DNA from: Nitrosospira sp. NpAV
GTDB taxonomy: Bacteria > Pseudomonadota > Gammaproteobacteria > Burkholderiales > Nitrosomonadaceae
Assembly (NCBI RefSeq): GCF_000832065.1
Contig: NZ_JXQM01000038.1
Span: 1-33,464, forward strand
Length of the DNA: 33,464 nt
Direction of reading: 5' to 3'
In this document: piece by piece, positions 1-13,038 of the stretch
Layout: each line of letters begins with the position of its first letter
Numbering within the stretch: position 1 is the first letter of the stretch
The notes under the pieces: generated by a model
Told to the model about the DNA's origin: nothing
Database searches by the model: none
What the model saw: only the letters and a program-made list of their open reading frames with translations
Program-made: the position numbers and the translations under genes

Positions 1-1
1 T

Positions 2-151
2 GAAATCGACTTCCGTTTCAACATCCACGTCAATCGGCAGCAAGATATCCTGGTCGGCTACTCGAAGCTCTTCGCCGGCAATTTCCTCAAGGCCACCGCT
101 CCCGGCGTCTCTCCAGACCTCTTCTACGTCCAATACAATGTGCGCTTTTGA
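2..151 (+). CDS. C-terminal fragment of an alginate-export-type outer-membrane protein
   Basis: The first 49 codons seen are the end of a gene that begins outside the window. The translated tail has alternating hydrophobic and polar residues typical of final beta strands (DILVGYSKLFAGNFL, then LFYVQYNVRF) and ends in an aromatic Phe, the classic outer-membrane insertion signal. The wording resembles the last strands of the alginate export family (PF13372), the same family I assign to the gene at 22046-23410. The substrate cannot be told from this piece. The stop is followed within about 35 bases by the copper-type promoter, so this gene and the copper run are probably separate transcription units. 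Confidence 0.7.
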   Translation, partial: EIDFRFNIHVNRQQDILVGYSKLFAGNFLKATAPGVSPDLFYVQYNVRF

Positions 152-184
152 CAAATATCGGGCGCAGGCTCCATATACCTATGC

Positions 185-219
185 GGGGTATTGACATATA
201 CCCCACTATGGTATACAGT
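185..219 (+). promoter_or_regulatory. Promoter with nested inverted repeats, probable CsoR operator (copy 1)
   Basis: A -35 box TTGACA (191-196) is followed either by TATACA after 15 bases (212-217) or by TACAGT after 17 (214-219). The -35 box lies inside an inverted repeat, GGGGTAT (185-191) and ATACCCC (198-204) with 6 bases between. Its right half overlaps a second one, TATACC (197-202) and GGTATA (210-215) with 7 bases between. G/C tracts flanked by TA-rich arms are typical of CsoR/RcnR-family operators. A near copy lies at 7960-8004. The downstream run encodes CsoR itself, so autoregulation is the simplest reading. The operator assignment is inferred; the repeats are directly visible. 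Confidence 0.75.
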
Positions 220-351
220 AAAGCCGAAATTGTGAAGAATCGCCCGATAACCCGCTGCGGGATATGACTCTCACCCGGCGCGGAATCCGGCGAATCTCCG
301 AAGGCGAATCAAGCTGATGATATTGTTAATGAAAACGTTAGGATATACAAA

Positions 352-1437
352 ATGGCTGCCAAATCGGCTCATCTGAAAGTCAAAGGGATGCACTGCACCG
401 GCTGCGAGGAAACCATCGAGAACGCGGTGAGTCATTTGCCGGGCATCCGGAAAGTCCATGCCGACCATGTCAAGCAAACGGTCGATATCGAATTCGACAG
501 CAAATCCATCGGGGAAAGCGGCATTCGTCATGCGATCGAAGAGAAAGGTTATGAATTCGAAAGCGCATCCACGGAATCCTCCGGTCACGCGATACGAAAT
601 ACACTGATTTTCCTCACTTTCCTGCTGGTGGTGGGTGGCGTGACGTTCTGGGGCAAGAGCATGATCCCGGGTTTGGTGGGGGAGATGAGCCCTCAACTCG
701 GCTATGCCATGCTGCTTTCCATCGGATTCTTTACCGGGTTTCACTGCATCGGCATGTGCGGCGGTTTTGTGGTGGGTTATGCGACGGCTATCGAACCCCG
801 CACCGCAAGTAGCACAGCGATGGCTCATTTGATGTACGCCACCGGTAAAACAGCGTCTTATACGATTATTGGCGGCAGTTTGGGGCTGCTGGGCTCGCTC
901 GTGGCCTTTACCCCCGCCATGCGGGGTACCGTCACGCTCGCGGCTAGTCTTTTCGTGATCATCTATGGCCTCAAGATGCTGGATGTTTTTCCCGTATTGC
1001 GCAACTTCACCCTGCGTTTGCCCCGGTTTGTCGTGCGAGGCGTATCGAATGAGTTGCGTCAACGGCGCAGCCCCCTATCCATCGGACTTTTAAACGGCTT
1101 GATGCTGGGTTGCGGCCCGTTGCAAGCCATGTACATCATGGCTGCCGGTACCGGCAGCGCCCAGGAAGGCGCCACCATGCTGTTCTTCTTTGGTCTGGGC
1201 ACCCTGGTGCCACTTCTGAGTTTCGGACTGATCGCCGGTTCCGTATCGCGGGATATCATCAACCTGCTGGTACGCGCATCCGCCATCATGGTTATCGCCA
1301 TGGGCCTGATGATGGCGGATCGGGGACTCAAGCTGACCGGATCCGGCTATGACTTCAACTCCCTGTCGTCCCGCTGGCAGCAGGCAGCACCCGCGGATAA
1401 TCATTTTGAACCAGGGAGCCCTGCCCGGCAGCGTTAA
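352..1437 (+). CDS. HMA-domain / TauE-SafE (DsbD_2/UreH-like) membrane protein
   Basis: This 361-residue protein joins two modules. Residues about 5-70 form a heavy-metal-associated domain with the metal motif GMHCTGCEE. Residues about 85-330 form a six- to seven-helix membrane unit of the sulfite exporter TauE/SafE or UreH/DsbD_2 kind, with a conserved FHCIGMCGG stretch in the first half of the unit. Family knowledge places such proteins in transition-metal or thiol transport across the inner membrane, and several sit beside copper ATPases or cbb3 oxidase assembly genes. Here the gene is 40 bases before copA and directly behind the operator-like promoter, so copper is the likely metal. A TTAGGA ribosome-binding site (338-343) sits 8 bases before the ATG. 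The direction of transport is not known. Confidence 0.85.
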
Positions 1438-1477
1438 GTGGCACGACTACTATGAATTCCGGCTGGATAGCAAATAT

Positions 1478-3889
1478 ATGAACACACTTGCACTTAAACA
1501 ACTTGAACTGCCGATCGAAGGCATGACCTGCACTGCCTGCGCGGCACGCATCGAAAAAAATCTGAACAAGCTACCCGGCGTGCGTGCGGTAGTCAACTTC
1601 GCCAATGAAAAAGCGCGCGTGGAGTTCGATGAGACAGCTACCCCGCCCGAAGAGCTGATCCGCTCGATCGAGAAAGCCGGATTTCATGTCGCGCCCCAAT
1701 CGGTACAACTGCAAATCAGCGGAATGACATGCGCCGCATGCAGCGGACGTATCGAAAAAACATTGAACAAGCTTCCCGGCGTCACTGCAACCGTCAATCT
1801 GGCCACGGAAATAGCGCATGTCAGCCTGCACCCCGGTGCCGGTGCGACGATGATGAATGACCTGATCGCCGCCGTTGCCAAGGCAGGCTATGGTGCCCGG
1901 GAAATCAGTGAAGCCAGCCGAACCGAAGAGAAAGCGCGAAAACTGGCCGCGTACCATGCGGAACTTCGCATGTTCTGGATTGCGGCGGCGCTTACCTTGC
2001 CACTGATGCTGCAGATGGGCCCCATGCTCTGGGGTGATCATGCGGAATTCCTGCCGCGCTGGCTGCAGCTTCTGCTGGCAACGCCGGTGCAGTTCTGGGT
2101 TGGCAAGCGCTTCTATACCGCTGCATGGCATGCATTGCGTGGGGGCGGCGCCAACATGGATGTGCTGGTCGCGCTGGGCACCAGCATGGCATACTTTTTC
2201 AGTGCGGTGGTTACGTTGCTGTCACTGAACCAGCATGTCTATTTCGAGGCAAGCGCGGCCATCATCACCCTGGTACTGTTGGGCAAACTGATGGAAGCCC
2301 GCGCCAAGGGCAAAACTTCAGCAGCCATTGAAGCCCTCATCAAGTTACAGCCAAAAACCGCCCGGGTGGAGCGCGACGGCATGATCGTCGAAGTCGACGC
2401 AAACTCGCTCAAGGTGGGCGACATTTTTATCGTGCGCCCCGGCGAGAATCTGCCGGTGGATGGCGTTGTCATCGAAGGGACCTCCAGCGTGAATGAGGCG
2501 ATGCTGACCGGCGAAAGCCTGCCCGTCACAAAACAGGCGGGAGCCAGGGTTTATGCGGCCACCCTGAACCAGCAGGGGCTGCTCAAATGCCGCGCCACCA
2601 GTGTCGGCACCCATACCCAGCTTGCGGCCATCATTCATCTAGTGGAAGAAGCACAGGGCTCCAAGGCGCCGATCCAGCGATTGGCCGACGTCATTTCGGG
2701 CATATTTGTGCCGGTGGTGGTGATCATCAGTACCCTCACGCTGATCCTTACATGGTGGCTGGCGGGCGAATTCGTTCCGGCGCTCGTCAATGCCGTGGCG
2801 GTACTCGTCATTGCCTGTCCCTGTGCATTGGGACTGGCCACGCCCACCGCGATCATGGTCGGGGCGGGACGCGGCGCACAAGCCGGCGTGCTGGTGAAGA
2901 ATGCCGCCTCGCTGGAGCAGGCGGAGAAGATTCAGGTGTTGATCGTAGACAAAACCGGCACGCTCACGGAAGGCAAGCCGGCAGTCACGAATATTGTTCC
3001 GGCACGATCGATCTCGGAACACGCGCTGATGCAGGTTGCCGCGACGCTGGAGCAAGGTTCGGAACACCCCCTGGCAAAAGCGGTGATGGAACATGCGGCT
3101 GGTATGAATATCCGGCCCCAGACGGTAAGCGATTTTACCGCTATCACCGGCAGCGGAATCACTGCCCGCATCGATGGCATCGACTATATCTGCGGCTCCC
3201 CCAGATTTCTGCGGGAACATGGCGCCCTGGCGAATAATGATTCGAATGATGATTCAATAGCTGTTCTCCAGGGCGAGGGTAAAACCGTCATCGGCGTGGC
3301 CGCCTCACCTCAAGGTACTTTTGAGGTTCTCGGTTATCTCGCCATTGCCGACCGGCTGCGAAACACTTCCGCACCCGCGGTAAGGCGGCTGCAATCAATG
3401 GGTATCGAAGTCATCATGCTGACCGGCGATAATCTCGCCACTGCCGCCGCCATTGCGAAGCAGGTGGGCATCGGCACTTATCGCGCCGAGGTGCTGCCGC
3501 AAGACAAAGCCGCCGAAGTGAAAAAGATGAAAATGAGTGGCAAATTCATAGGCATGGTGGGCGACGGCATCAACGATGCTCCGGCACTGGCCGCGGCCGA
3601 CGTGGGTTTCGCCATTGGCGCGGGTTCCGACGTGGCGGTTGAAGCTGCCGACATCACCCTCATGCGTGATGACTTGATGAGCGTGGCCGACGCCATTTCG
3701 CTCTCGCGCGCGACGCTGGGAAAAATCCGCCAGAATCTCTTCTTCGCCTTCATCTACAACGTGCTGGGCATACCACTGGCGGCGATAGGATTGCTTAACC
3801 CCGTCATCGCGGGCGCGGCAATGGCAATGAGTTCGGTATCGGTGGTCAGCAATTCATTGTTGCTGAAACGATGGCGGGCGGGTACGTGA
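1478..3889 (+). CDS. copA: Copper-exporting P1B-type ATPase
   Basis: The protein pumps Cu(I) out of the cytoplasm using ATP. Two N-terminal HMA domains carry GMTCTAC (Cys18, Cys21) and GMTCAAC (Cys85, Cys88). The membrane metal site is C447-P448-C449 (ACPCALG). The ATPase motifs are TGES (actuator), DKTGT with phosphorylated Asp491, SEHPLA (the P1B His-Pro pair) and GDGINDAP. The C-terminal [10 protein letters not shown] with the preceding YN pair is the Cu(I) signature of helices 7-8. I take the ATG at 1478 (803 residues). The frame stays open upstream to 1349, but that extension overlaps the preceding gene and reads as non-domain sequence. copZ begins 37 bases after the stop. Confidence 0.95.
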
Positions 3890-3926
3890 GGAACATTCAT
3901 TCAACTTAACTGAAAGGAGTCATGAA

Positions 3927-4136
3927 ATGCAAACAGAAATCGTAAAAATCAAGGGAATGACCTGCATGGGCTGTGTCAACAGCGTGAAGAACGTGTTGGA
4001 GAAGATACCGGGCGTGAATGGTGCGGATGTTTCTCTTGAACAGAAACAGGCCGTGATCCAGTACGACGCAGCCACAACCCACCCCAACCAGTTCAAGGAT
4101 GCTATCAAGGAGGCCGGTTTTGAAGTCGTCAACTAA
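3927..4136 (+). CDS. copZ: Copper chaperone CopZ
   Basis: A 69-residue single HMA domain whose motif [11 protein letters not shown] (Cys13 and Cys16) binds Cu(I). Family members are cytoplasmic chaperones that hand copper to the N-terminal domains of CopA or to the CsoR sensor. The length and the beta-alpha-beta-beta-alpha-beta pattern match the family from end to end. A strong AAGGAGT site (3914-3920) sits 6 bases before the ATG; another ATG five bases upstream is out of frame. The gene lies between copA and csoR, and its last 17 bases overlap the csoR start, suggesting translational coupling. Confidence 0.95.
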
Positions 4137-4443
4137 AAAACCGTCTCCTGGAAAGGAACCGTGCCACGCGCAGATGGTAGTGCAGCCTGACAAGGAAGCT
4201 CTGATGAAGCGTCTCAACCGCATCGAGGGTCAGGTACGCGGTGTCAACAAAATGATAGCGGAAGATCGTTATTGCGTTGACATCCTGAATCAGGTCTCCG
4301 CGCTGCAGTCGGCGCTCGACGCCGTTGCCATGCTGTTATTGGAGAATCATACCCATGGCTGCATGCAGGGTGCCATCAAGTCGGGTAAAGGCGATGAGGC
4401 AATCGATGAACTGATGGCGGTGGTACGGAAATTCGCTCGGTAG
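4120..4443 (+). CDS. csoR: Copper-sensing transcriptional repressor CsoR
   Basis: An all-helical DUF156/CsoR-family repressor of about 107 residues. The Cu(I) ligand set is visible as Cys52 (RYCVDIL), His77 and Cys81 (ENHTHGC). The spacings of 25 and 4 match the Cys-His-Cys set of Bacillus CsoR and separate it from RcnR and FrmR. The helix 1 signature [11 protein letters not shown] is intact. No ATG fits well: the best start is TTG 4120, because AAGGAGG (4107-4113) lies 6 bases before it, inside copZ. The ATG at 4174 would give a shorter protein. Copper binding is expected to release the protein from the operators at 185-219 and 7960-8004; that link is inferred from sequence and position. Confidence 0.93.
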
Positions 4444-4526
4444 CGTTGGCGGCAAATCATGGTTATTTCAGGCTGCTGCTCAGCGGCTGCGGTACGCCTG
4501 ATAAAAACGAACCGGTAGGGAATGTA

Positions 4527-5258
4527 ATGACACGACTTGTCCTGATTGCTTTTTTGTTTTTTGCCGGACCTGCTATCACCGCCGATATTCCCCCGGTTGA
4601 CGTGCCCGACACGATGGGGGAAAGGGTAAAAGCGTGTATTGCCTGTCATGGTCCCGAGGACAAAGAGGGCCGGGATGCGTACTATCCCCGTATCGCGGGC
4701 AAGCCTGAGGGCTATCTGTTCAATCAGTTGCGCAATTTCCGGGACGGCCGGCGTCATTACCGGCCCATGGGGTTGCTGCTGGAAAATTTGCCCGATCAAT
4801 ACCTGCGGGAGATGGCTGCCTATTTCGCTTCGCTGAAGCAGGCTTTTCCCCCACCTGAGCCGCTGACCTCCTCATCCGCCGAAATAAAGCTCGCTCGAAG
4901 ACTTGTGACCCTGGGAGATCCCGCGCGAAAAATTCCCGCCTGCGTTGAATGCCACGGCAAGGATCTGATGGGAACCGCGCCTTTTATCCCTGGCCTGCTG
5001 GGCCTGCCACGCGTCTACATCATCGCCCAGTTCGGCAACTGGCAGAATGGCGGCTTGATGCGGGGACAGACGCCCGACTGCATGTCGGAAATTGCAAAAC
5101 AGCTCACGACCGACGAGGCAAGCGCCATCGCAGCCTGGCTGGCCGCGCAGCCGGTTTCCGAGGCCCTTTTGAAGCACGACGGTCCGGCGGCAGCCCTGCC
5201 CGACAAGCTCGCCAAGCGCTGTGGCAGCATCGTTCTGCAATCCGGAGGATTGCAATGA
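4527..5258 (+). CDS. Exported diheme cytochrome c (c4-like)
   Basis: A 243-residue protein with an N-terminal signal peptide (about residues 1-19, ending AITA) and two c-type heme sites, CIACH (37-41) and CVECH (139-143). The tandem half-domains, each with a YPRIAGKP- or PFIPGLLG-like loop and a distal Met region, resemble the c4/c5 class that shuttles electrons in the periplasm. The frame is open further upstream, but the ATG at 4527 begins directly at the signal peptide and has TAGGG before it. It overlaps the next cytochrome gene by 4 bases (ATGA), so the two are surely co-translated. No dehydrogenase or oxidase subunit is adjacent, so the redox partner is unknown. Confidence 0.88.
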   Translation: MTRLVLIAFLFFAGPAITADIPPVDVPDTMGERVKACIACHGPEDKEGRDAYYPRIAGKPEGYLFNQLRNFRDGRRHYRPMGLLLENLPDQYLREMAAYFASLKQAFPPPEPLTSSSAEIKLARRLVTLGDPARKIPACVECHGKDLMGTAPFIPGLLGLPRVYIIAQFGNWQNGGLMRGQTPDCMSEIAKQLTTDEASAIAAWLAAQPVSEALLKHDGPAAALPDKLAKRCGSIVLQSGGLQ

Positions 5259-6529
5259 AACCTGTCGTCATCGCTGCCGCGCTTGCCGGACTCATCGGTC
5301 TTGGCCTGTACCTGGCGCCGATGAATCGGCCACCCGTAAACGAATTGCCGGCGTCAAAGACCGAAAACCCGGCGGAATTACAGGCAAGAGGCGCCTACCT
5401 CGCGCAAGCCGGCAATTGCATGGGGTGCCATACCGCCCAAGGCGGCAAACCCTACGCGGGCGGGCACATCCTTGACACCTCGATTGGAACATTCATCACG
5501 CCTAACATCACGCCCGATCCGGAAACCGGTATCGGACAATGGACCGAGCAGGATTTCTGGCGGGCGCTGCATGATGGCAAGGCACGCGACGGCAGTCCCT
5601 TATACCCGGCTTTTCCCTACACGGATTACACCAAGGTGACGCGCGAAGATGCCAATGCGATCTTCGCCTATCTTCAATCGCTCGCCCCCGTGCCTCAACG
5701 CAATCCACCGAGCCGCATCAGTTTTCCCTTCAACCTGCGTCCCCTCCTGTACGTCTGGCGCGCCCTTTACTTCGAGCAAGGCGTTTATCGGCCCGAGGCC
5801 GCAAAGAACGATGAATGGAACCGCGGCGCCTATCTCGTGCAAGGGCTCGGACATTGCAATGCTTGCCACACGGCGCGGAATCCGCTGGGCGCAAGCCAGG
5901 GCAATGTACTGGGAGGAGGACAACTCATGGGCTCGAACTGGTATGCGCCATCCCTGACTTCCCTGCAGGAGGCCAGCACTTCGGACTGGCCGCTGAATGA
6001 TATTGCCCGACTCCTCACGGCGGGCTTGTCATCCCGGGCGGCCGCAACAGGGCCGATGGCCGATGTCGTCAGCCAAAGCCTTCAATATCTGACGCCGGAT
6101 GATGCGCGCGCCATGGCCGTCTATCTCAAATCATTGCCCGGGAGCGCTCCACATTCCAGGGGAACAGCCCCCGAGCTTACCGATGAAGTAGATAGGCAGC
6201 TCCGGCGAGGCGGCGAAATTTACGAGAAATATTGCCAGGATTGCCATGGCAGCTTCGGGCAAGGTGCGCCCGGCGTTTATCCGGCACTGGCCGGCAACCG
6301 CGGCGTCACCCTCGCCTCCCCGGTTAACGCGATTCGCAGCATACTCAATGGCGGCTATGCGCCTGTCACGGAAAGCAGCCCGCGCCCCTACGGCATGCCG
6401 CCATTTGCGCAAATCCTGCCCGATGAAGAGATTGCGCTGGTCTTATCGTATATCCGTAATGCATGGGGTAATCGTGGCAGCCTGGTTACGGCGGTTCAGG
6501 TCGACCGGAGCAGGAAGGGTGCGCAATGA
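5255..6529 (+). CDS. Triheme cytochrome c, alcohol-dehydrogenase cytochrome-subunit type
   Basis: A 424-residue protein with an uncleaved or signal-type N-terminal helix (MKPVVIAAALAGLIGLGLYL) and three heme c sites: CMGCH (55-59), CNACH (201-205) and CQDCH (327-331). The order and spacing match the membrane-bound cytochrome subunit of periplasmic alcohol/aldehyde/gluconate dehydrogenases, which passes electrons from a PQQ- or flavin-enzyme to quinone or oxidase. GGAGGAT (5244-5250) precedes the ATG, which overlaps the stop of the diheme gene. No dehydrogenase lies in the neighbourhood, so it either serves a distant enzyme or works with the diheme protein as a separate electron conduit. Confidence 0.88.
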   Translation: MKPVVIAAALAGLIGLGLYLAPMNRPPVNELPASKTENPAELQARGAYLAQAGNCMGCHTAQGGKPYAGGHILDTSIGTFITPNITPDPETGIGQWTEQDFWRALHDGKARDGSPLYPAFPYTDYTKVTREDANAIFAYLQSLAPVPQRNPPSRISFPFNLRPLLYVWRALYFEQGVYRPEAAKNDEWNRGAYLVQGLGHCNACHTARNPLGASQGNVLGGGQLMGSNWYAPSLTSLQEASTSDWPLNDIARLLTAGLSSRAAATGPMADVVSQSLQYLTPDDARAMAVYLKSLPGSAPHSRGTAPELTDEVDRQLRRGGEIYEKYCQDCHGSFGQGAPGVYPALAGNRGVTLASPVNAIRSILNGGYAPVTESSPRPYGMPPFAQILPDEEIALVLSYIRNAWGNRGSLVTAVQVDRSRKGAQ

Positions 6530-6597
6530 ACCTGCATCCGGCAATGATCCGCGCAAAAGGCTGCCCATCCCTGAACCGCATTCCCGCAACCTGCTAA
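6526..6597 (+). CDS. Possible 23-codon coupling ORF between cytochrome and topoisomerase
   Basis: An ATG at 6526 overlaps the stop of the triheme cytochrome (ATGA). The frame runs 23 codons to a TAA whose last base is the A of an ATG (TAATG, 6595-6599) opening the topoisomerase frame. The overlap at both ends would let ribosomes pass from the cytochrome to the topoisomerase. The peptide has no recognisable domain. It may be chance; only the overlap pattern supports it. Confidence 0.3.
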   Translation: MNLHPAMIRAKGCPSLNRIPATC

Positions 6598-7688
6598 TGG
6601 AAGAACCCCGCATGACGGTTCAGCATGACAAGAATGGATCGAATGCCCCAACGTTGGAGGATCTGACCGCACAGGCGGCAGCGGCAGGGCTATTATATGT
6701 TTCGGATAATGAGCCCGGAATCCGGAGGGTACGGCGCGGCCGCGGATTTCATTATGTGGATCCCGATAAGAAGACATTGATCGATAAGGGCGAACTTGAA
6801 CGCATCGCCAGGCTGGCGATACCTCCGGCCTATACGGATGTGTGGATCTGCCTTCACGCGCAGGGCCATTTGCAGGCAACAGGGATCGATGCACGCAAGC
6901 GTAAGCAGTATCGTTATCACCCCGACTGGCGTATCGCACGCGACGGTATCAAATTCGATCGAATGGTGGAATTCGGGGAAGCGCTGCCTGCGCTTCGGCA
7001 ATGCCTGCAGCGTGACCTGAGGCGGCGAGGTCTACCCCGGGAAAAAATTCTGGCGGCTATCGTAAGCCTGCTGGATACCACCCAGGTACGAATTGGCAAC
7101 CTGTCCTATGCACGCGACAATCGCAGCTTCGGTCTCACCACGCTACGTAAACGTCATCTTGCCTTCGTCGGCCAGCGGCATGTCTTGCTGAAATTCCGGG
7201 GCAAGAGCGGGGTTGAACATGAAGTCGATATCGATAACCGGCGTATCGTGAAAATCATACGCGATTGCCAGCAGCTGCGGGGTCAGCATCTTTTCAAATA
7301 CCTGGATGAGGCGGGCAAGTCCCATCCCATAGGCTCGGAGCATGTGAACAGCTACCTGCGCGAAACCATGGGAGCCGAATTCACCGCCAAGGATTTCCGC
7401 ACCTGGGGCGCTACGTTGAGAGCGTTTGAACTGATGCTGGGTACGCCATTGCCCGAATTCCCCACAAAACGCGCCATCAGAGCCTGTATCGTCAGTGCAA
7501 TAAAAAAGGTCGCCGACGAGTTGCGCAATACCGTTGCGGTCTGCCGGAAATCCTACATCAATCCCCTGATATTCTCCGCATGGCAAACGGGCGCCCTCCA
7601 TCAGGGTATGCGTGAGGAAACAGAGGGTACCCGCGAAGAATTGGAGTGTATGATTCTGGCATTTCTTCGGCGAGCGCAGTCTGAATAA
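6597..7688 (+). CDS. DNA topoisomerase type IB
   Basis: The protein relaxes supercoils by nicking one strand and forming a 3'-phosphotyrosyl link. It resembles the small poxvirus-type bacterial TopIB. Visible marks are the N-terminal beta-rich region (GRGFHYVDPD), KRKQYRYHPDW, the core region with IGNLSYARDN and FRGKSGVEHEVD, KDFRTWGAT, and CRKSYINP with catalytic Tyr320. About 363 residues from ATG 6597 is a usual size. ATG 6612 is an alternative start and has GGAAG 8 bases upstream. The frame is open far upstream, but that part overlaps the cytochrome gene. It is the last gene of the plus-strand run; its link to copper is positional only. Confidence 0.9.
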   Translation: MEEPRMTVQHDKNGSNAPTLEDLTAQAAAAGLLYVSDNEPGIRRVRRGRGFHYVDPDKKTLIDKGELERIARLAIPPAYTDVWICLHAQGHLQATGIDARKRKQYRYHPDWRIARDGIKFDRMVEFGEALPALRQCLQRDLRRRGLPREKILAAIVSLLDTTQVRIGNLSYARDNRSFGLTTLRKRHLAFVGQRHVLLKFRGKSGVEHEVDIDNRRIVKIIRDCQQLRGQHLFKYLDEAGKSHPIGSEHVNSYLRETMGAEFTAKDFRTWGATLRAFELMLGTPLPEFPTKRAIRACIVSAIKKVADELRNTVAVCRKSYINPLIFSAWQTGALHQGMREETEGTREELECMILAFLRRAQSE

Positions 7689-7959
7689 CTCTCCGACTCA
7701 TATCTCGCACCCGCACGAGGCAACCCCGCCGAATCAGCGCATCAATGCGGCAAGATGACGCATGTGGCATATTGCCGCACCATGGAATTGATGAACACCA
7801 CCCCTGTCTAATTCATATCCGGACGCATGCTGCGGAACGCTGGAAATCGGCTGGCAATCGGTCTTTTCACATCAATCCGCATAAGGCTGGCGAGCTGTCC
7901 CTATGACGATTCTTGTTTGCTGCCTGTTATCCGGAATATTTTTTTGTTTAGCTCGATAT
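7689..7959. other. Intergenic region after topoisomerase with a paired repeat
   Basis: No convincing gene here. TGCGGCAA (7746-7753) and TTGCCGCA (7772-7779) form an 8-bp inverted repeat with 18 bases between. No T-run follows, so it is a weak terminator candidate. The same two arms reappear as a tight palindrome at 10414-10430. The rest shows no feature I can support. Confidence 0.5.
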
Positions 7960-8004
7960 ATACCCTGTAAGGGTATTGACATATACCCCCATAAGGTATA
8001 CAGT
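7960..8004 (+). promoter_or_regulatory. Promoter with nested inverted repeats, probable CsoR operator (copy 2)
   Basis: The same layout as copy 1: TTGACA (7976-7981), 15 bases, TATACA (7997-8002). The spacer differs from copy 1 at only a few places, and the AGTAAA after the -10 is shared. GGGTAT (7971-7976) pairs with ATACCC (7983-7988), and TATACC (7982-7987) with GGTATA (7995-8000). An extra upstream unit, ATACCC (7960-7965) with GGGTAT (7971-7976), makes this copy larger. It drives the exported protein at 8074. Confidence 0.75.
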
Positions 8005-8032
8005 AAATTTGTAGGAGAATCAGGAATCACCC

Positions 8033-8077
8033 ATGAAATTTAACCGAATTTTGCATAATCCGAGGAGACATAAATGA
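8033..8077 (+). CDS. Possible 14-codon leader peptide before the exported protein
   Basis: ATG 8033 has CAGGAA (8021-8026) 6 bases upstream and runs 14 codons (Arg, Lys and His rich) to a TGA that overlaps the ATG of the next gene (ATGA, 8074-8077). The pattern fits a leader that couples translation. The next gene also has its own strong GAGGAG site, so coupling is not required. Chance cannot be excluded for so short a frame. Confidence 0.35.
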   Translation: MKFNRILHNPRRHK

Positions 8078-8565
8078 ACACATTACCGGTTGCCACGCTT
8101 CTACTTGGCGCCGTGCTGACGGGAACATCCCTGTTTGCCGGCGCACATACCGAAGAATATTTCGATTCCGTCGAATCGCCCCACGGCGGACAGATGCGGA
8201 TGTCCGGGCCTTATCACCTGGAGCTTGTCGCCAAGGACAAGGAAATCGTGCTCTACGTGATGGATCATGCCAACAGCAAGCTTAATACCGAGGGCGGCTC
8301 AGGCAAGGCGACTATTCAAGCCGGCAAAGACAAAACCAGAATCTCGGTCAAACTGGAACAGGCGGGCGATAATATCCTCAAAGGAACGGGAGATTTCTCC
8401 ATTAAACCCGAGACGGTCGTCACCGTCTTCGTTGACCTGCCGGGGCAGGAAGCGTACTCGGCCAGTTTTACTCCGCTCAAACCCAAGGCCAAGCTTGCCA
8501 TGAAAACCAAAGCTGCCAAGCCGCAAGCGAATAGCAGTGATCCACACCATCATACGCACCACTGA
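8074..8565 (+). CDS. Small exported protein with His-rich tail, probable copper-regulon member
   Basis: A 163-residue protein of no family I can name. Residues 1-25 form a signal peptide ending near FAGA. The mature part starts with an acidic HTEEYFD stretch and then PHGGQMRMSGPYHLEL. A beta-rich core follows (IVLYVMDHANSK, TRISVKLEQ, TVVTVFVDLPG), then a Lys/Ala linker and the tail SDPHHHTHH. Met-rich and His-rich pieces suggest periplasmic metal binding. GAGGAG (8062-8067) sits 6 bases before the ATG. The promoter is a near copy of the one before the copA run, so induction by copper through CsoR is expected. A hairpin terminator follows, making it a single-gene unit. The function is inferred only. 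Confidence 0.85.
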   Translation: MNTLPVATLLLGAVLTGTSLFAGAHTEEYFDSVESPHGGQMRMSGPYHLELVAKDKEIVLYVMDHANSKLNTEGGSGKATIQAGKDKTRISVKLEQAGDNILKGTGDFSIKPETVVTVFVDLPGQEAYSASFTPLKPKAKLAMKTKAAKPQANSSDPHHHTHH

Positions 8566-8620
8566 TCGACTCGGTAATGGCCCCGGTGAGCAAGCCCACT
8601 CCGGCTTGCCCACCCACGAC

Positions 8621-8647
8621 AAACCCGTCGTTTCGGACGGGTTTTTT
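8621..8647 (+). terminator. Rho-independent terminator
   Basis: AAACCCGTC (8621-8629) and GACGGGTTT (8636-8644) form a perfect 9-bp stem with a 6-base loop, and the T-run continues through 8647. It ends the transcript of the exported His-tail protein. Confidence 0.85.
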
Positions 8648-8701
8648 CTTCTGGTCAATCCCGCAACCTCTTCTTCGGCAAACTCGTGGCGCCGCTCATG
8701 G

Positions 8702-9085
8702 TCATATGGATTCTCCTCTCACCAGGGAAAGTTGCGTATCGGCCAGCAGGTTGCGAAGCAAGCGCTGGTAGGAGGTGTCTCCTCTCATCACGGCGCGTGC
8801 GTCAATGACGAGGCGCAAGCGGCCGCTTTGCAGCCTCAAGAGCTTCAGATAATTGGGAAAAGAATGATGCGCAGGCACCGCGATGCCGGCACCGGGACGC
8901 TCAGGGGGATAACCGGTCCACTCGGGCACCAATCCGGATTGGCGCAAGGTCGCTTCCGATTCTTCGAACACATATGCGATAATGCCAATAGCATCACTCT
9001 TCCAATGGCTGATCGGCGTCAGAAGCGGTGCTTGAGGAACTGACTGGACGGCTTGCTGAGACACGTGCTTGGGTTCGGTTTTCAT
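8702..9085 (-). CDS. Hypothetical protein, 127 residues
   Basis: I do not recognise the family. The protein has no signal peptide or membrane segment. It contains a Trp/Pro-rich middle (PEWTGYPPERPG) and a C-terminal half rich in Leu and Arg that could be helical (NYLKLLRLQSGRLRLVIDAR, then YQRLLRNLL). The ATG at 9085 is preceded by AGAGGAG with a 7-base gap, a strong ribosome-binding site. This is the main reason I prefer it to the overlapping plus-strand frame, which would run through a terminator. It stands alone on the minus strand, convergent with the His-tail gene. Confidence 0.6.
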   Translation of the reverse strand: MKTEPKHVSQQAVQSVPQAPLLTPISHWKSDAIGIIAYVFEESEATLRQSGLVPEWTGYPPERPGAGIAVPAHHSFPNYLKLLRLQSGRLRLVIDARAVMRGDTSYQRLLRNLLADTQLSLVRGESI

Positions 9086-9382
9086 GATAAAACTCCTCTG
9101 TAAGCAATTCAAGACTTGCCACTACTCCGGCACCCTCTCCGCCATCGGAACCACGTTTCCCGCAAAGTGCCGTATCATTCATGTTACGCATTTTGAGCGC
9201 GTTGAAAATTGTACTGAAGTACATCCATGAAAAACCTTAAACCCGATATTTCGCTGGATCGCGGGGATGATGAAAAGAAAAATCCCGGGGCGGGTCAAAA
9301 AATGCAGCAGAATCTGCCTTTACGCAATAGCCGCTATCGAAGCAAATATATTCCGTCACTATGACCCATCCATGGAGCCATT

Positions 9383-10393
9383 ATGCAAGACCCTACCCCC
9401 GAGAAAATTTTGCAAACCGGCATGGCCTTCTGGGCATCAAAAACGCTGCTCAGTGCTGTCGAGATGGGCGTTTTCACCGAATTGTCGCGTGGTCCGGCGA
9501 GTCTGGATACGGTCAGCGAAAGACTCGGTCTGCATGCCCGCTCGGCGCGTGATTTCCTCGATGCGCTGGTGGCGCTCGGCTTCCTCGAGCGCGAGAACGG
9601 CCGCTACGGCAATACGCCCGATACCGATCTGTTTCTCGACCGGAATAAATTGTCCTACATGGGCGGCATCCTTGAGATGGCGAATCACCGCCTTTATCCG
9701 TTCTGGAGTCATCTTACCGAAGCTCTCCGCACCGGCCAGCCGCAGAATGAGTGCAAGACCGGAGGAGCCGGTCTCTTTGAAACACTTTATGCCGATCCCG
9801 CACGACTGAAGGAATTTCTCTCCGCCATGACGGGCGTCAGCCACGCCTCCAACAGCGCGATCGCCCGCATTTTTCCCTGGAAGGACTACCATACGTTTGT
9901 CGATGTAGGTACCGCGCAGGGAGACCTCGCTATGCAGATTGCGCTTGCCCATCCGCACCTGCGCGGCATGGGATTCGATCTGCCGGAAGTCGCTCCGATT
10001 TTTCAGCAATACGCCGCAGCCGCGGGTGTCGCAGACCGGCTCACGTTCATGCCGGGCAACTTCTTCGAGCATGATCTCCCCAAAGCGGACGTTGTATTGA
10101 TGGGACATATCCTGCACGACTGGGACCTGCCCGCCAAAAAGACGCTTATACGAAAAGCGTTCGAGGCGATTCCTGACGGCGGAGCGCTTATCGTCTACGA
10201 TGCCATCATAGACGACGACCGCTCGCAGAATGCCTTTGGATTGATGATGAGCCTGAACATGCTGATCGAAACGCCGGGAGGTTTCGACTATACGGGCGCC
10301 GACTGTACGGCCTGGATGAGAGATGCCGGGTTCTCCGCCATGCGGGTCGAGCCATTGACCGGACCGGATTCCATGGTTATCGGGATTAAATAG
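9383..10393 (+). CDS. SAM-dependent O-methyltransferase (family 2, hydroxyneurosporene/ASMT-like)
   Basis: A 336-residue class I methyltransferase of the dimeric family-2 O-methyltransferases. Residues about 12-85 form the winged-helix dimerisation domain ([14 protein letters not shown], then [18 protein letters not shown]). The SAM-binding motif is [12 protein letters not shown], followed by the acidic GMGFDLPEV, and then GHILHDW, the catalytic-region motif of these enzymes. The acceptor is usually a hydroxyl on a polyketide, carotenoid or indole compound; it cannot be read from the sequence. GGAG lies 5 bases before the ATG. A decayed fragment matching its C-terminal third lies at 13094-13170, beyond the TonB receptor gene. 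Confidence 0.9.
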
Positions 10394-10413
10394 AATGAGG
10401 GCCTGACTCCAGG

Positions 10414-10430
10414 TGCGGCAATTTGCCGCA
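10414..10430. promoter_or_regulatory. 17-bp palindrome upstream of the TonB receptor
   Basis: TGCGGCAA and TTGCCGCA meet around a single central base. The one-base loop makes it a poor RNA hairpin, so a dimeric regulator site is more likely than a terminator. It lies 58 bases before the receptor start. The same half-sites occur further apart at 7746-7779. The binding protein is unknown. Confidence 0.45.
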
Positions 10431-10488
10431 TTCCTGCGCCAGCCAAAATGCATTATTCTCGCGCTCCAGCTTATCGCGAGAGGATATT

Positions 10489-13038
10489 GTGCGCTGGATT
10501 CGACATATCGGGTTTATAAAGCAAAAACTTGTCTTCCTTGTTCTGGCAAGCATACTCTCCGCATCTTCTGTCCGGGCAGCTAGCGAAGCCGAGCCGCCGG
10601 TAAAAGAGGCGACCAAACCTGTCTCTCCGGCCGCAAAAAAACCGCCTGCTGCCGTACCCTCACCGGAAACACCCAAGGATACTGATGTAACGCCCGCCTC
10701 CGCCGAAAAGAAAACAGCTGCTGGCGAGTCGGCGATTAAATTGCCGGAAATGACGATAGGAGGGAAAGTCAAACCCGTCTCCAAGCAAACCGAGGTGGAA
10801 AGATATAGGCTGCCCCAAACCACGGAGAGTATTACCCGGGAAAAAATGGACGCTACCATCAATATGATGCAGGCGGAGGATGCCATCAAATACATGCCAT
10901 CGGTGCAAGTGCGCAACCGCTATATCGGCGACACCAACGCGCCAGTGGGAACGCGCACCTCAGGCACATCCGCCAGCGCACGCAACCTAATTTATGCCGA
11001 CGGCATCCTGCTGTCTTCCCTGCTCGGCAACAACAATGTCAACACGGGTTCGCCTCGCTGGAATACCGTTTCGCCCGGAGAAATTGAACGCATCGATATC
11101 ATGTATGGCCCGTTCTCAGCCGCTTATCCTGGAAATTCCATGGGCGGCGTGATCAACATCACGACGCGCATGCCGGAAAAATTCGAAGGGGGCGTGGATG
11201 TGCAACAATCATTCCAGACTTTTAATCTCTATGGCACAAAGGATACCTACCATAATCAGCGGTACTCCGGATACATCGGCCACCGCTATAAAGATCTATC
11301 GTTCCGCTTTGACTACAGCCATCTCGATGCCCATAGTCAACCCATCATTTTCACGACCCCCCTCCAATCTGCCGGCGCCCCGTTATCCGGCGGAGAGACG
11401 GCAGTAACGGGCGCTTTCCCTGGCCAAAACCCCACACTTGCCCCTAACTTCGTACTGGGGGCCGGAAACATAAACCATACCGTGCAGGACAACTTCAAGT
11501 GGAAGCTGGCCTACGATTTCACGCCGACCATAAGATTTGCCTACACCTTGGGGATGTGGCAAAACAACGCAAGCGCCAGCGCTCAAAGTTATCTGAGAGA
11601 CGCCGCAGGCAACATTGTGGATAGCGGCATTGTCAATATTGATGGCAGGCGATTCAATCTAAATACTGTCAGCTCCGGCCTTCCTGCTTTCGCCGCGAAT
11701 CGAACCAATCAAACCACATGGTCGCACGGCCTGAATCTCAGATCCAACACCGGCGGAAAATTTGACTGGGAGTTGGTGGGCAGCGTGATCGATTTAAGCA
11801 CGGATAATGTGCGCCAACCAACGGTTAACCCCATCCTTGCAGCCGCCAATGGTCCTGGCAGGATTACCAGTCTGGCCGGTTCCGGCTGGCATACGTTCGA
11901 TGCAAAAGGTATCTGGCGGCCGCGCGTTGATTTTCTCGGGCTGGGTTATCATGAGATCAGCTTTGGTTTTCACCATGATCTGTACACCCTGAAAAATCCG
12001 GTATACAACACCAGCAATTGGCAAACGGGCGGTCCCGCAGCCACCTCTCCTATCTTCTCAAACTCGACTGGGAAAACCCGGACTGAAGGTTATTGGGTAC
12101 AAGATGCCTGGGATTTCCTTCCGCACTGGAACTTCACGGTCGGTGGCCGTTTTGAAAACTGGCACGCTTACGATGGAGTCAACACCACCACTGCCGGAAC
12201 GGTTAACCAGGCTGACAAAAGTGCGTTCAATTTTTCACCTAAAGGGAAGTTAAGCTGGAGTCCGATCGAACAGTTAAGATTTGGCGCAGCCATTGGTCAG
12301 GCTTACCGCTACCCCACGGCATCGGAATTGTTTCAAACAACGACAGTGGCGGGTGTAGCATTCAACGCAAATCCTAATCTCAGGCCTGAAGATGCCCTCT
12401 CCTCCGAGCTCTCCGCCGAATATTTTCCAGAAAAAGGAAGACTGCGTCTCAGCCTGTTCCAGGAGCGGGTAAAAAATGCCATTTTTACCCAAGTCGGGAC
12501 GGTCAATGGTATTCAAACGAGCTTTATTTCCAATGTTGGCGAAGTTGATACTTACGGCATCGAATTTTCCGGGGAAAAAACGGATGCCTGGATCAAGGGT
12601 CTGGATATCCTGGGTAATTTCACCTGGGTGGATTCAAGAATCAACGAGAACCGCGCTGCGGACGAAGCAGCGGCTCTGTTGGGTCCGACCGCAGCCAATC
12701 CAAACGCCGCCCTCCCCTCGACCGGAAAACGCCAACCACGGGTTCCCGTATGGCGATCCAACGTCGTAGTTTCCTATCGCGCAACCGACAAGTTCAGCGC
12801 CTCGGTGATGCTCCGCTATAGCAGCCGCCAGTTCGGCCAATTGAATAACACCGACACCAACGGTTTTTCATATACAGGGCTTACCAGCTACACTGTCGTC
12901 GATTTACGCGCAAATTACAGACTCAGCAAGCAAGTGATGATCAGCGCTGGTATCGACAATGTTAACAATGAAAAATACTGGGTCTTTCACCCCATGCCGC
13001 AACGGACTTACTTTACCCAGATAAGATTTAATTATTAG
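10489..13038 (+). CDS. TonB-dependent outer-membrane receptor
   Basis: An 849-residue receptor from a GTG start with AGAGGA just upstream; the frame is open 22 codons further, but only the GTG begins at a signal peptide (WIRHIGFIKQKLVFLVLASI, cleavage near VRA). An Ala/Pro/Lys/Glu-rich linker of about 55 residues precedes a TonB-box-like PEMTIGG. The plug follows (AEDAIKYMPSVQVR, ERIDIMYGPFSAAYPGNSMGGVINI), then a barrel of about 600 residues ending in YFTQIRFNY. Such receptors import siderophores, cobalamin, metals or sugars. The ligand is not evident, and no Fur-like site is visible just upstream. The neighbouring methyltransferase may be linked, because a relic of a second copy flanks the other side. 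Confidence 0.93.
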   Translation: MRWIRHIGFIKQKLVFLVLASILSASSVRAASEAEPPVKEATKPVSPAAKKPPAAVPSPETPKDTDVTPASAEKKTAAGESAIKLPEMTIGGKVKPVSKQTEVERYRLPQTTESITREKMDATINMMQAEDAIKYMPSVQVRNRYIGDTNAPVGTRTSGTSASARNLIYADGILLSSLLGNNNVNTGSPRWNTVSPGEIERIDIMYGPFSAAYPGNSMGGVINITTRMPEKFEGGVDVQQSFQTFNLYGTKDTYHNQRYSGYIGHRYKDLSFRFDYSHLDAHSQPIIFTTPLQSAGAPLSGGETAVTGAFPGQNPTLAPNFVLGAGNINHTVQDNFKWKLAYDFTPTIRFAYTLGMWQNNASASAQSYLRDAAGNIVDSGIVNIDGRRFNLNTVSSGLPAFAANRTNQTTWSHGLNLRSNTGGKFDWELVGSVIDLSTDNVRQPTVNPILAAANGPGRITSLAGSGWHTFDAKGIWRPRVDFLGLGYHEISFGFHHDLYTLKNPVYNTSNWQTGGPAATSPIFSNSTGKTRTEGYWVQDAWDFLPHWNFTVGGRFENWHAYDGVNTTTAGTVNQADKSAFNFSPKGKLSWSPIEQLRFGAAIGQAYRYPTASELFQTTTVAGVAFNANPNLRPEDALSSELSAEYFPEKGRLRLSLFQERVKNAIFTQVGTVNGIQTSFISNVGEVDTYGIEFSGEKTDAWIKGLDILGNFTWVDSRINENRAADEAAALLGPTAANPNAALPSTGKRQPRVPVWRSNVVVSYRATDKFSASVMLRYSSRQFGQLNNTDTNGFSYTGLTSYTVVDLRANYRLSKQVMISAGIDNVNNEKYWVFHPMPQRTYFTQIRFNY

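Follow-up and report, generated by a model that had tools for sequence, protein, structure and literature searches.

A candidate CsoR-type tandem operator shared by the cop operon and the gene of an unnamed exported protein in Nitrosospira sp. NpAV

The window analysed here, a stretch of 33,464 nucleotides from Nitrosospira sp. NpAV (contig NZ_JXQM01000038.1, positions 1 to 33,464 of the forward strand), carries a cop copper operon whose promoter recurs, nearly unchanged, in front of a single gene for a small exported protein that we call X. Both promoters probably belong to one regulon of the copper-sensing repressor CsoR, and X would be the duplicate of a copper-handling protein of the ammonia monooxygenase (amo) gene cluster, recruited to that regulon. 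Ammonia monooxygenase is the enzyme that starts nitrification. As regards copper delivery to this enzyme, the introduction of a previous study speaks of missing components (PMC6189053). The unnamed protein at the end of the amo-copCD cluster is here tied to a conserved copper-repressor switch, a CsoR regulon is defined by bioinformatics for Nitrosospira, and concrete promoters and residues (His25, His37, His48 and His65 of X) are identified. While the switch belongs to a type already known, the family of the protein has no name and connects three copper settings. It also lacks a Pfam model and is found behind heavy-metal pumps in many Betaproteobacteria.

The two promoters share a segment of 52 positions, identical at 41 of them (172-223 and 7957-8008), while the next-best place in the window reaches 26/52 on the same strand and 29/52 on the other. 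An earlier note on this DNA had placed near-identical promoters at 185-219 and 7960-8004, 7.8 kb apart, with the csoR gene within the left unit. The positions, the distance and the place of csoR were right, the shared repeat being longer than supposed. The note had also seen two overlapping inverted repeats: these are present, and are better read as two tandem dyads around the -35 element. Each promoter indeed has the dyad ATACC-N7-GGTAT, which amounts to TAC-N9-GTA, twice at a distance of 23 bp, and TTGACA separates the two copies; in all four dyads the TAC-N9-GTA inverted repeat is exact. A 15-base spacer leading to TATACA, as once proposed, is less likely than TTGACA-17-TACAGT, which provides, at the two promoters, the two best sigma-70-like matches in positions 1-9300 (10/12); matches of this kind number seven in that region, near the 5.5 of shuffled sequence. 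The spacing of 17 is kept in relatives: among 40 promoters compared (27 with a scorable TTGAC, giving 28 sites, 12 without TTGAC and one cut too short), TA...T stands at that distance in 25 of the 28 TTGAC sites.

The strict dyad pattern, TATACCNNNNNNNGGTAT, is found nowhere in the 3.45 Mb genome but at the four dyads of these two promoters; counted over both strands it gives six matches, and the same pattern read backwards, used as a control, gives four. A looser pattern, TATACCCCNNNNNGGTATAC, has two exact matches genome-wide, both at these promoters. With two to three mismatches it yields dozens of genome matches, no more than its control, and at that level it is uninformative because the control count is equally high. 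Chance as the source of the repeats is rejected by the genome count of the strict dyad and by the backward controls.

In Streptomyces lividans, the consensus of the type-2 CsoR operator is ATATACCCCTNAGGGGTATAT, with a recognised TAC/GTA repeat spanning 9 bp, and Cu(I) releases the repressor from its operator (PMC3902906). As in the copZA1, copZA2 and csoR operators of that organism (PMC3902906), the Nitrosospira sites are TAC-N9-GTA pseudo-palindromes with C/G tracts, lying before copA-type genes. In the four dyads of the window 2-5 C and 2-4 G stand beside TAC/GTA, so that the tracts fall short of those of the S. lividans consensus. In Nitrosospira, unlike S. lividans, two complete candidate dyads stand in tandem on either side of the -35 element, in most cases at a distance of 23 bp. 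An outward GTA...TAC pair stands between the tandem dyads. This, too, is reminiscent of copZA1, where an external GTA/TAC motif changes CsoR binding, an effect which its authors connect with modular control (PMC3902906), and the Nitrosospira pair may act likewise.

The CsoR protein of the left unit scores 107 bits against PF02583 (cut-off 22.8) and is the sole member of that family in the genome. Its Cys34, His59 and Cys63 align with the positions that we take to be the Cu(I) ligands in the solved CsoR proteins 4m1p, 4adz and 2hh7. It remains under the cut-offs of the NCBIfam subfamilies RicR (87.5 against 175), FrmR (38.8 against 133) and RcnR (35.1 against 138), and belongs to none of them. 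A CsoR match was found in 34 of 61 genomes, and the cop locus was examined in 27 (22 of the genus and 5 others). A dyad of at least 9/10 lies near the first cop gene, before copA-csoR, in every one of these 27 loci (10/10 in 26, 9/10 in one), and the tandem scores 19 or 20 of 20 in 15. An extended tandem pattern matches 13 of the 61 genomes, 12 of the genus and an unrelated one at 3 mismatches; read backwards, it matches none of the 61. That one repressor controls both units, as the earlier note had suggested, and that this repressor is CsoR, is the best-supported reading, given the dyad geometry, the csoR gene in the left unit and the single PF02583 protein. Further support comes from the Cys-His-Cys positions, from the dyad in 27/27 loci, five of them outside the genus, and from copies of X located inside cop operons.

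X, first taken for a lone novelty, belongs to a widespread unnamed family. Homologues occur in 37 of 61 relatives, and a paralogue (67 percent) is present in the same genome (C34:166-666). In ammonia oxidisers the amo cluster ends with copD and then X. A tree with 49 rows, from which a partial row was omitted and in which identical proteins were merged, splits the rows of the genus into 21 amo-linked and 18 other copies, the 18 grouping together with support 97/97. Ten of these 18 have the operator, three lie inside the cop operon, directly behind its cytochrome gene (G001, G006 and G010), and five have neither. The search for the operator upstream of X homologues in related genomes, proposed in the earlier note as a check, thus finds it before 10 of 18 non-amo copies and before none of the 27 amo-linked rows, where the best tandem score is 13 against 15 to 20 in operator-bearing rows. 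Among these 27 rows, copD is adjacent in 18; the nine others, including the paralogue of the window genome, show only a downstream major facilitator superfamily gene, because the contigs end there. We also note that an operator-less third kind of X copy sits at one conserved locus in three genomes (L045, L047, L051).

The circuit that we infer, with its CsoR binding, its induction by copper and its metal binding and role of X, would run as follows. Apo-CsoR would bind the tandem TAC-N9-GTA dyads that flank and overlap the -35 and -10 elements, and silence X, the cop operon and a third unit, that of an outer-membrane protein. On a rise of Cu(I) in the cytoplasm, the Cu(I)-bound repressor would release the DNA, and the export ATPase, the chaperone, the outer-membrane protein and X would be expressed together. 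X would be exported to the periplasm and serve there, most likely, as a copper-binding buffer or carrier. As for its origin, the gene of the copper protein at the end of the amo-copCD cluster would have been duplicated in the ancestor of the genus, the duplicate being put under CsoR either via its own operator or via its position inside the cop operon. With near-identical CsoR-type switches on the one hand and copper- or heavy-metal-linked relatives on the other, X is therefore probably part of the copper response.

The earlier note had described the right unit as an exported His-tail protein of unknown family. None of 39 X members falls into a Pfam family, and the X of the window matches no NCBIfam family; the Pfam hits of X members (best 0.025) were rejected. 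The tail fares less well: it holds 0 to 12 His across the family, is missing or almost missing from the in-operon copies, and was rejected as a defining feature, while the His residues of the core are conserved. His25 and His48 are present in 39/39 aligned members, His65 in 37/39 and His37 in 36/39. His25 is always preceded by a signal-peptidase-like triplet, A/V/S-x-A/S/G (39/39; for example AGA), so that cleavage probably occurs just before it and mature X, as predicted from these letters, probably begins with His. The AlphaFold2 model of X is a beta-sandwich (mean pLDDT 78, 91 of 163 residues at 90 or above), and its best Foldseek matches are silver-bound and apo forms of the copper-resistance protein CrdA of Helicobacter pylori (E 3.3e-4 and 6.1e-4). 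Other candidates were set aside. A phmmer search of X against the PDB gave no real relative, its hits (E above 0.1) being initiation factors and nanobodies; profile matches to designed 'Pizza' propellers, with E values as low as 1.4e-6, are repeat artefacts, covering 14 to 29 positions of a repeat with 0 stretches passing alone.

X recalls several known proteins and coincides with none. Its model matches CrdA (9ll4, 9ll2) best, with a TM-score of 0.62 by target length and 0.43 by that of the query, and X resembles CrdA in being a small exported protein encoded together with a resistance-nodulation-division (RND) metal pump (PMC9182242). It differs from it in sequence (8 percent identity, no sequence match), in its conserved His and in its want of a Met-rich loop. 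In CrdA, which contains no His, such a loop binds the copper (PMC9182242); X is therefore not filed as a member of CrdA or CopC. Like CopC/PcoC it is, by prediction, a small periplasmic beta-sandwich that would begin with His after signal cleavage, and the gene of CopC lies two places ahead of that of the amo-linked X. The mature CopC protein starts with His. An N-terminal His is mentioned for CopC variants (PMC9182242). Unlike CopC, X gives no Pfam CopC match in 39 members, and Foldseek reaches only E 0.024 (5icu). Like AmoD/PmoD (PMC6189053), it is an exported, copper-linked protein of the amo cluster; unlike them, it has no Cys in its aligned core, and the AmoD/PmoD-type helix is not predicted in its model. 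It may be, and we put this forward as a tentative and rather unlikely proposal, that X stands for a new family of copper carriers of the periplasm, holding Cu at the N-terminal His in a histidine-brace-like manner with the His of the core and passing it on, either to ammonia monooxygenase or to a pump of the RND type. The duplication in Nitrosospira would then have split the donor into a supply form, linked to amo, and a detoxification form, controlled by CsoR.

Wider neighbourhoods were counted for 80 of the 81 relatives found, in named genomes, with stricter counts, since earlier clusters held antisense frames. A CusA/CzcA-type pump gene lies near X in 31 of the 80 listed loci, directly upstream on the same strand in 30, and amoB or copD lies near it in 19. 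Three of the pumps, which were checked, pass TIGR00914, the CusA/CzcA family model; two other neighbours, an oxidase and an ATPase, pass the models for copper-resistance multicopper oxidase and for copper ATPase, respectively. Plasmids carry the family too: in three examined of 20 matching records, X stands behind genes for TolC, adaptor and RND permease in Comamonas and Thauera, and beside TolC and heavy-metal-binding-domain genes in Hymenobacter. The excerpts of PMC5960693, PMC6189053, PMC13374858, PMC6769254, PMC4964001 and PMC4940428 show amoCABED-copCD and mention neither X nor a Nitrosospira CsoR regulon, which is no proof of absence, subscription journals lying outside our scope.

Several observations weigh against a single CsoR regulon that includes X as a copper protein. 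Twelve of the 27 cop loci score below 19/20 for the tandem (15 to 18), and the second dyad is therefore weak there. The pattern matches at G004:C17 and G018:C242, with 3 mismatches, have no recognised copper gene alongside and are probably due to chance. Among the 18 non-amo copies of X, the five that have neither operator nor cop-operon position are found at the third locus (three) or elsewhere (two). Three of the ten operator-bearing copies show a single good dyad (tandem score 15/20), and five of the ten have no TTGAC near the operator. The label 'carries operator' is itself drawn from the motif, and therefore only its confinement to the non-amo clade is independent. With the cut-offs used, 30 of the 80 listed loci, the stand-alone Nitrosospira copies included, have neither amo/copD nor a pump nearby, in part because of short contigs. 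Moreover, RND models such as TIGR00914 do not separate Cu/Ag from Zn/Cd/Co pumps.

Might the two promoters simply be a recently duplicated segment, born of local duplication and sharing no regulator that matters? Their identity over 41/52 positions at 7.8 kb in one locus would fit, as would the occurrence of three such promoters in one block in G012 and G021. Drift, however, would not keep the dyads while the inner bases change, and this is the situation in both promoters and in the 27 csoR loci, five of which are outside the genus. Operator-bearing X genes also stand at unlinked places in G015 and G022, and we hold duplication alone to be very improbable. Use of the sites by another copper regulator, MerR-type CueR or a two-component system, with CsoR acting elsewhere, likewise seems improbable to us. 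It is true that operators of CueR-type and two-component regulators can be palindromic and lie between -35 and -10, a genome search for CueR or CusRS being outside the scope of this work. MerR-type promoters, however, typically have a spacer of 19-20, against 17 here, and the dyad not only has CsoR geometry but also goes with the csoR operon in G041, G044, G049, G058 and G028.

A CsoR regulon comprising both units, which we prefer, could still hold an X that is controlled by copper without being a copper protein: it might bind another metal or a component of the pump, or act as a general envelope-stress protein. No solved relative of X was found by sequence, many Ig-like folds match its model weakly (1841 weaker matches up to E 10), and the pumps belong to the CusA/CzcA family in general. 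Set against this are the four conserved His of the core, linked genes such as copCD and those of a multicopper oxidase and a Cu-ATPase, and the copper-resistance protein that comes first among the fold matches, so that we regard a non-copper X as unlikely, while giving it some weight.

The regulon probably reaches beyond the two units, and the view of a single pair of repressor sites has to be widened: the two near-identical promoters stand, and beside them the genome holds a third unit whose tandem operator is weaker (9/10 per dyad; G000:C85:271263-271308). Its gene is intact in G012 and G021, with a short HMA-like start followed by Pfam Alginate_exp (scan of the G012 protein). In the window genome the gene is split, its 3' end being found at the beginning of the window and its 5' part (G000:C85:271263-271679, L146) at the end of C85. 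Other sequence stands behind the 5' part on C85; insertion and assembly break are both possible, and the pieces are kept separate. In G005:C16 (L147, 2474-2852), a tandem operator precedes a second CopZ-like gene, a likely member of the regulon.

Predicted features of the left part of the window
Feature	Position	Strand	Basis or remark
3' end of alginate-export-type outer-membrane protein gene	2..151	+	matches C-terminus of intact G012 protein
Tandem CsoR-type operator and promoter of cop operon	172..223	+	predicted from sequence
cop promoter, dyad O1	174-191		
cop promoter, -35 TTGACA	191-196		
cop promoter, dyad O2	197-214		
cop promoter, -10 TACAGT	214-219		
HMA domain fused to DsbD_2 membrane domain, heads cop operon	352..1437	+	Pfam
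CopA, Cu(I)-type P1B ATPase, two HMA domains	1478..3889	+	Pfam; TIGR01511 above cut-off
CopZ-like HMA copper chaperone	3927..4136	+	Pfam HMA
CsoR copper-sensing repressor, start codon uncertain	4174..4443	+	PF02583; alignment to solved CsoR proteins
Di-haem-type cytochrome c	4527..5258	+	Pfam
Multi-domain cytochrome c	5255..6529	+	Pfam
Bacterial DNA topoisomerase IB, between the two units	6612..7688	+	Pfam
Tandem CsoR-type operator and promoter of exported protein X	7957..8008	+	predicted from sequence
X promoter, dyad O1	7959-7976		
X promoter, -35 TTGACA	7976-7981		
X promoter, dyad O2	7982-7999		
X promoter, -10 TACAGT	7999-8004		
Exported protein X, 163 residues; predicted cleavage AGA|His25; beta-sandwich core; variable His-rich tail	8074..8565	+	
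Intrinsic-terminator-like hairpin with T run behind X	8621..8644	+	9 pairs, 56 bases past stop codon

The left unit had been described as a copA-copZ-csoR run; the run is there, and the unit starts with the HMA-DsbD_2 gene before copA and also takes in the two cytochrome c genes. The HMA-DsbD_2 gene is absent before copA in several related genomes, and in G017:C19 (L155) the open reading frame that matches copA has 1172 residues, which suggests a possible fusion with the HMA-DsbD_2 gene upstream. Terminator-like sites such as the hairpin behind X number 13 in positions 1-9300, against 9.8 expected in shuffles. Further to the right, at 9383-13038, the window holds a methyltransferase-like open reading frame and then a long one that resembles, by the look of its sequence, a TonB-dependent receptor.

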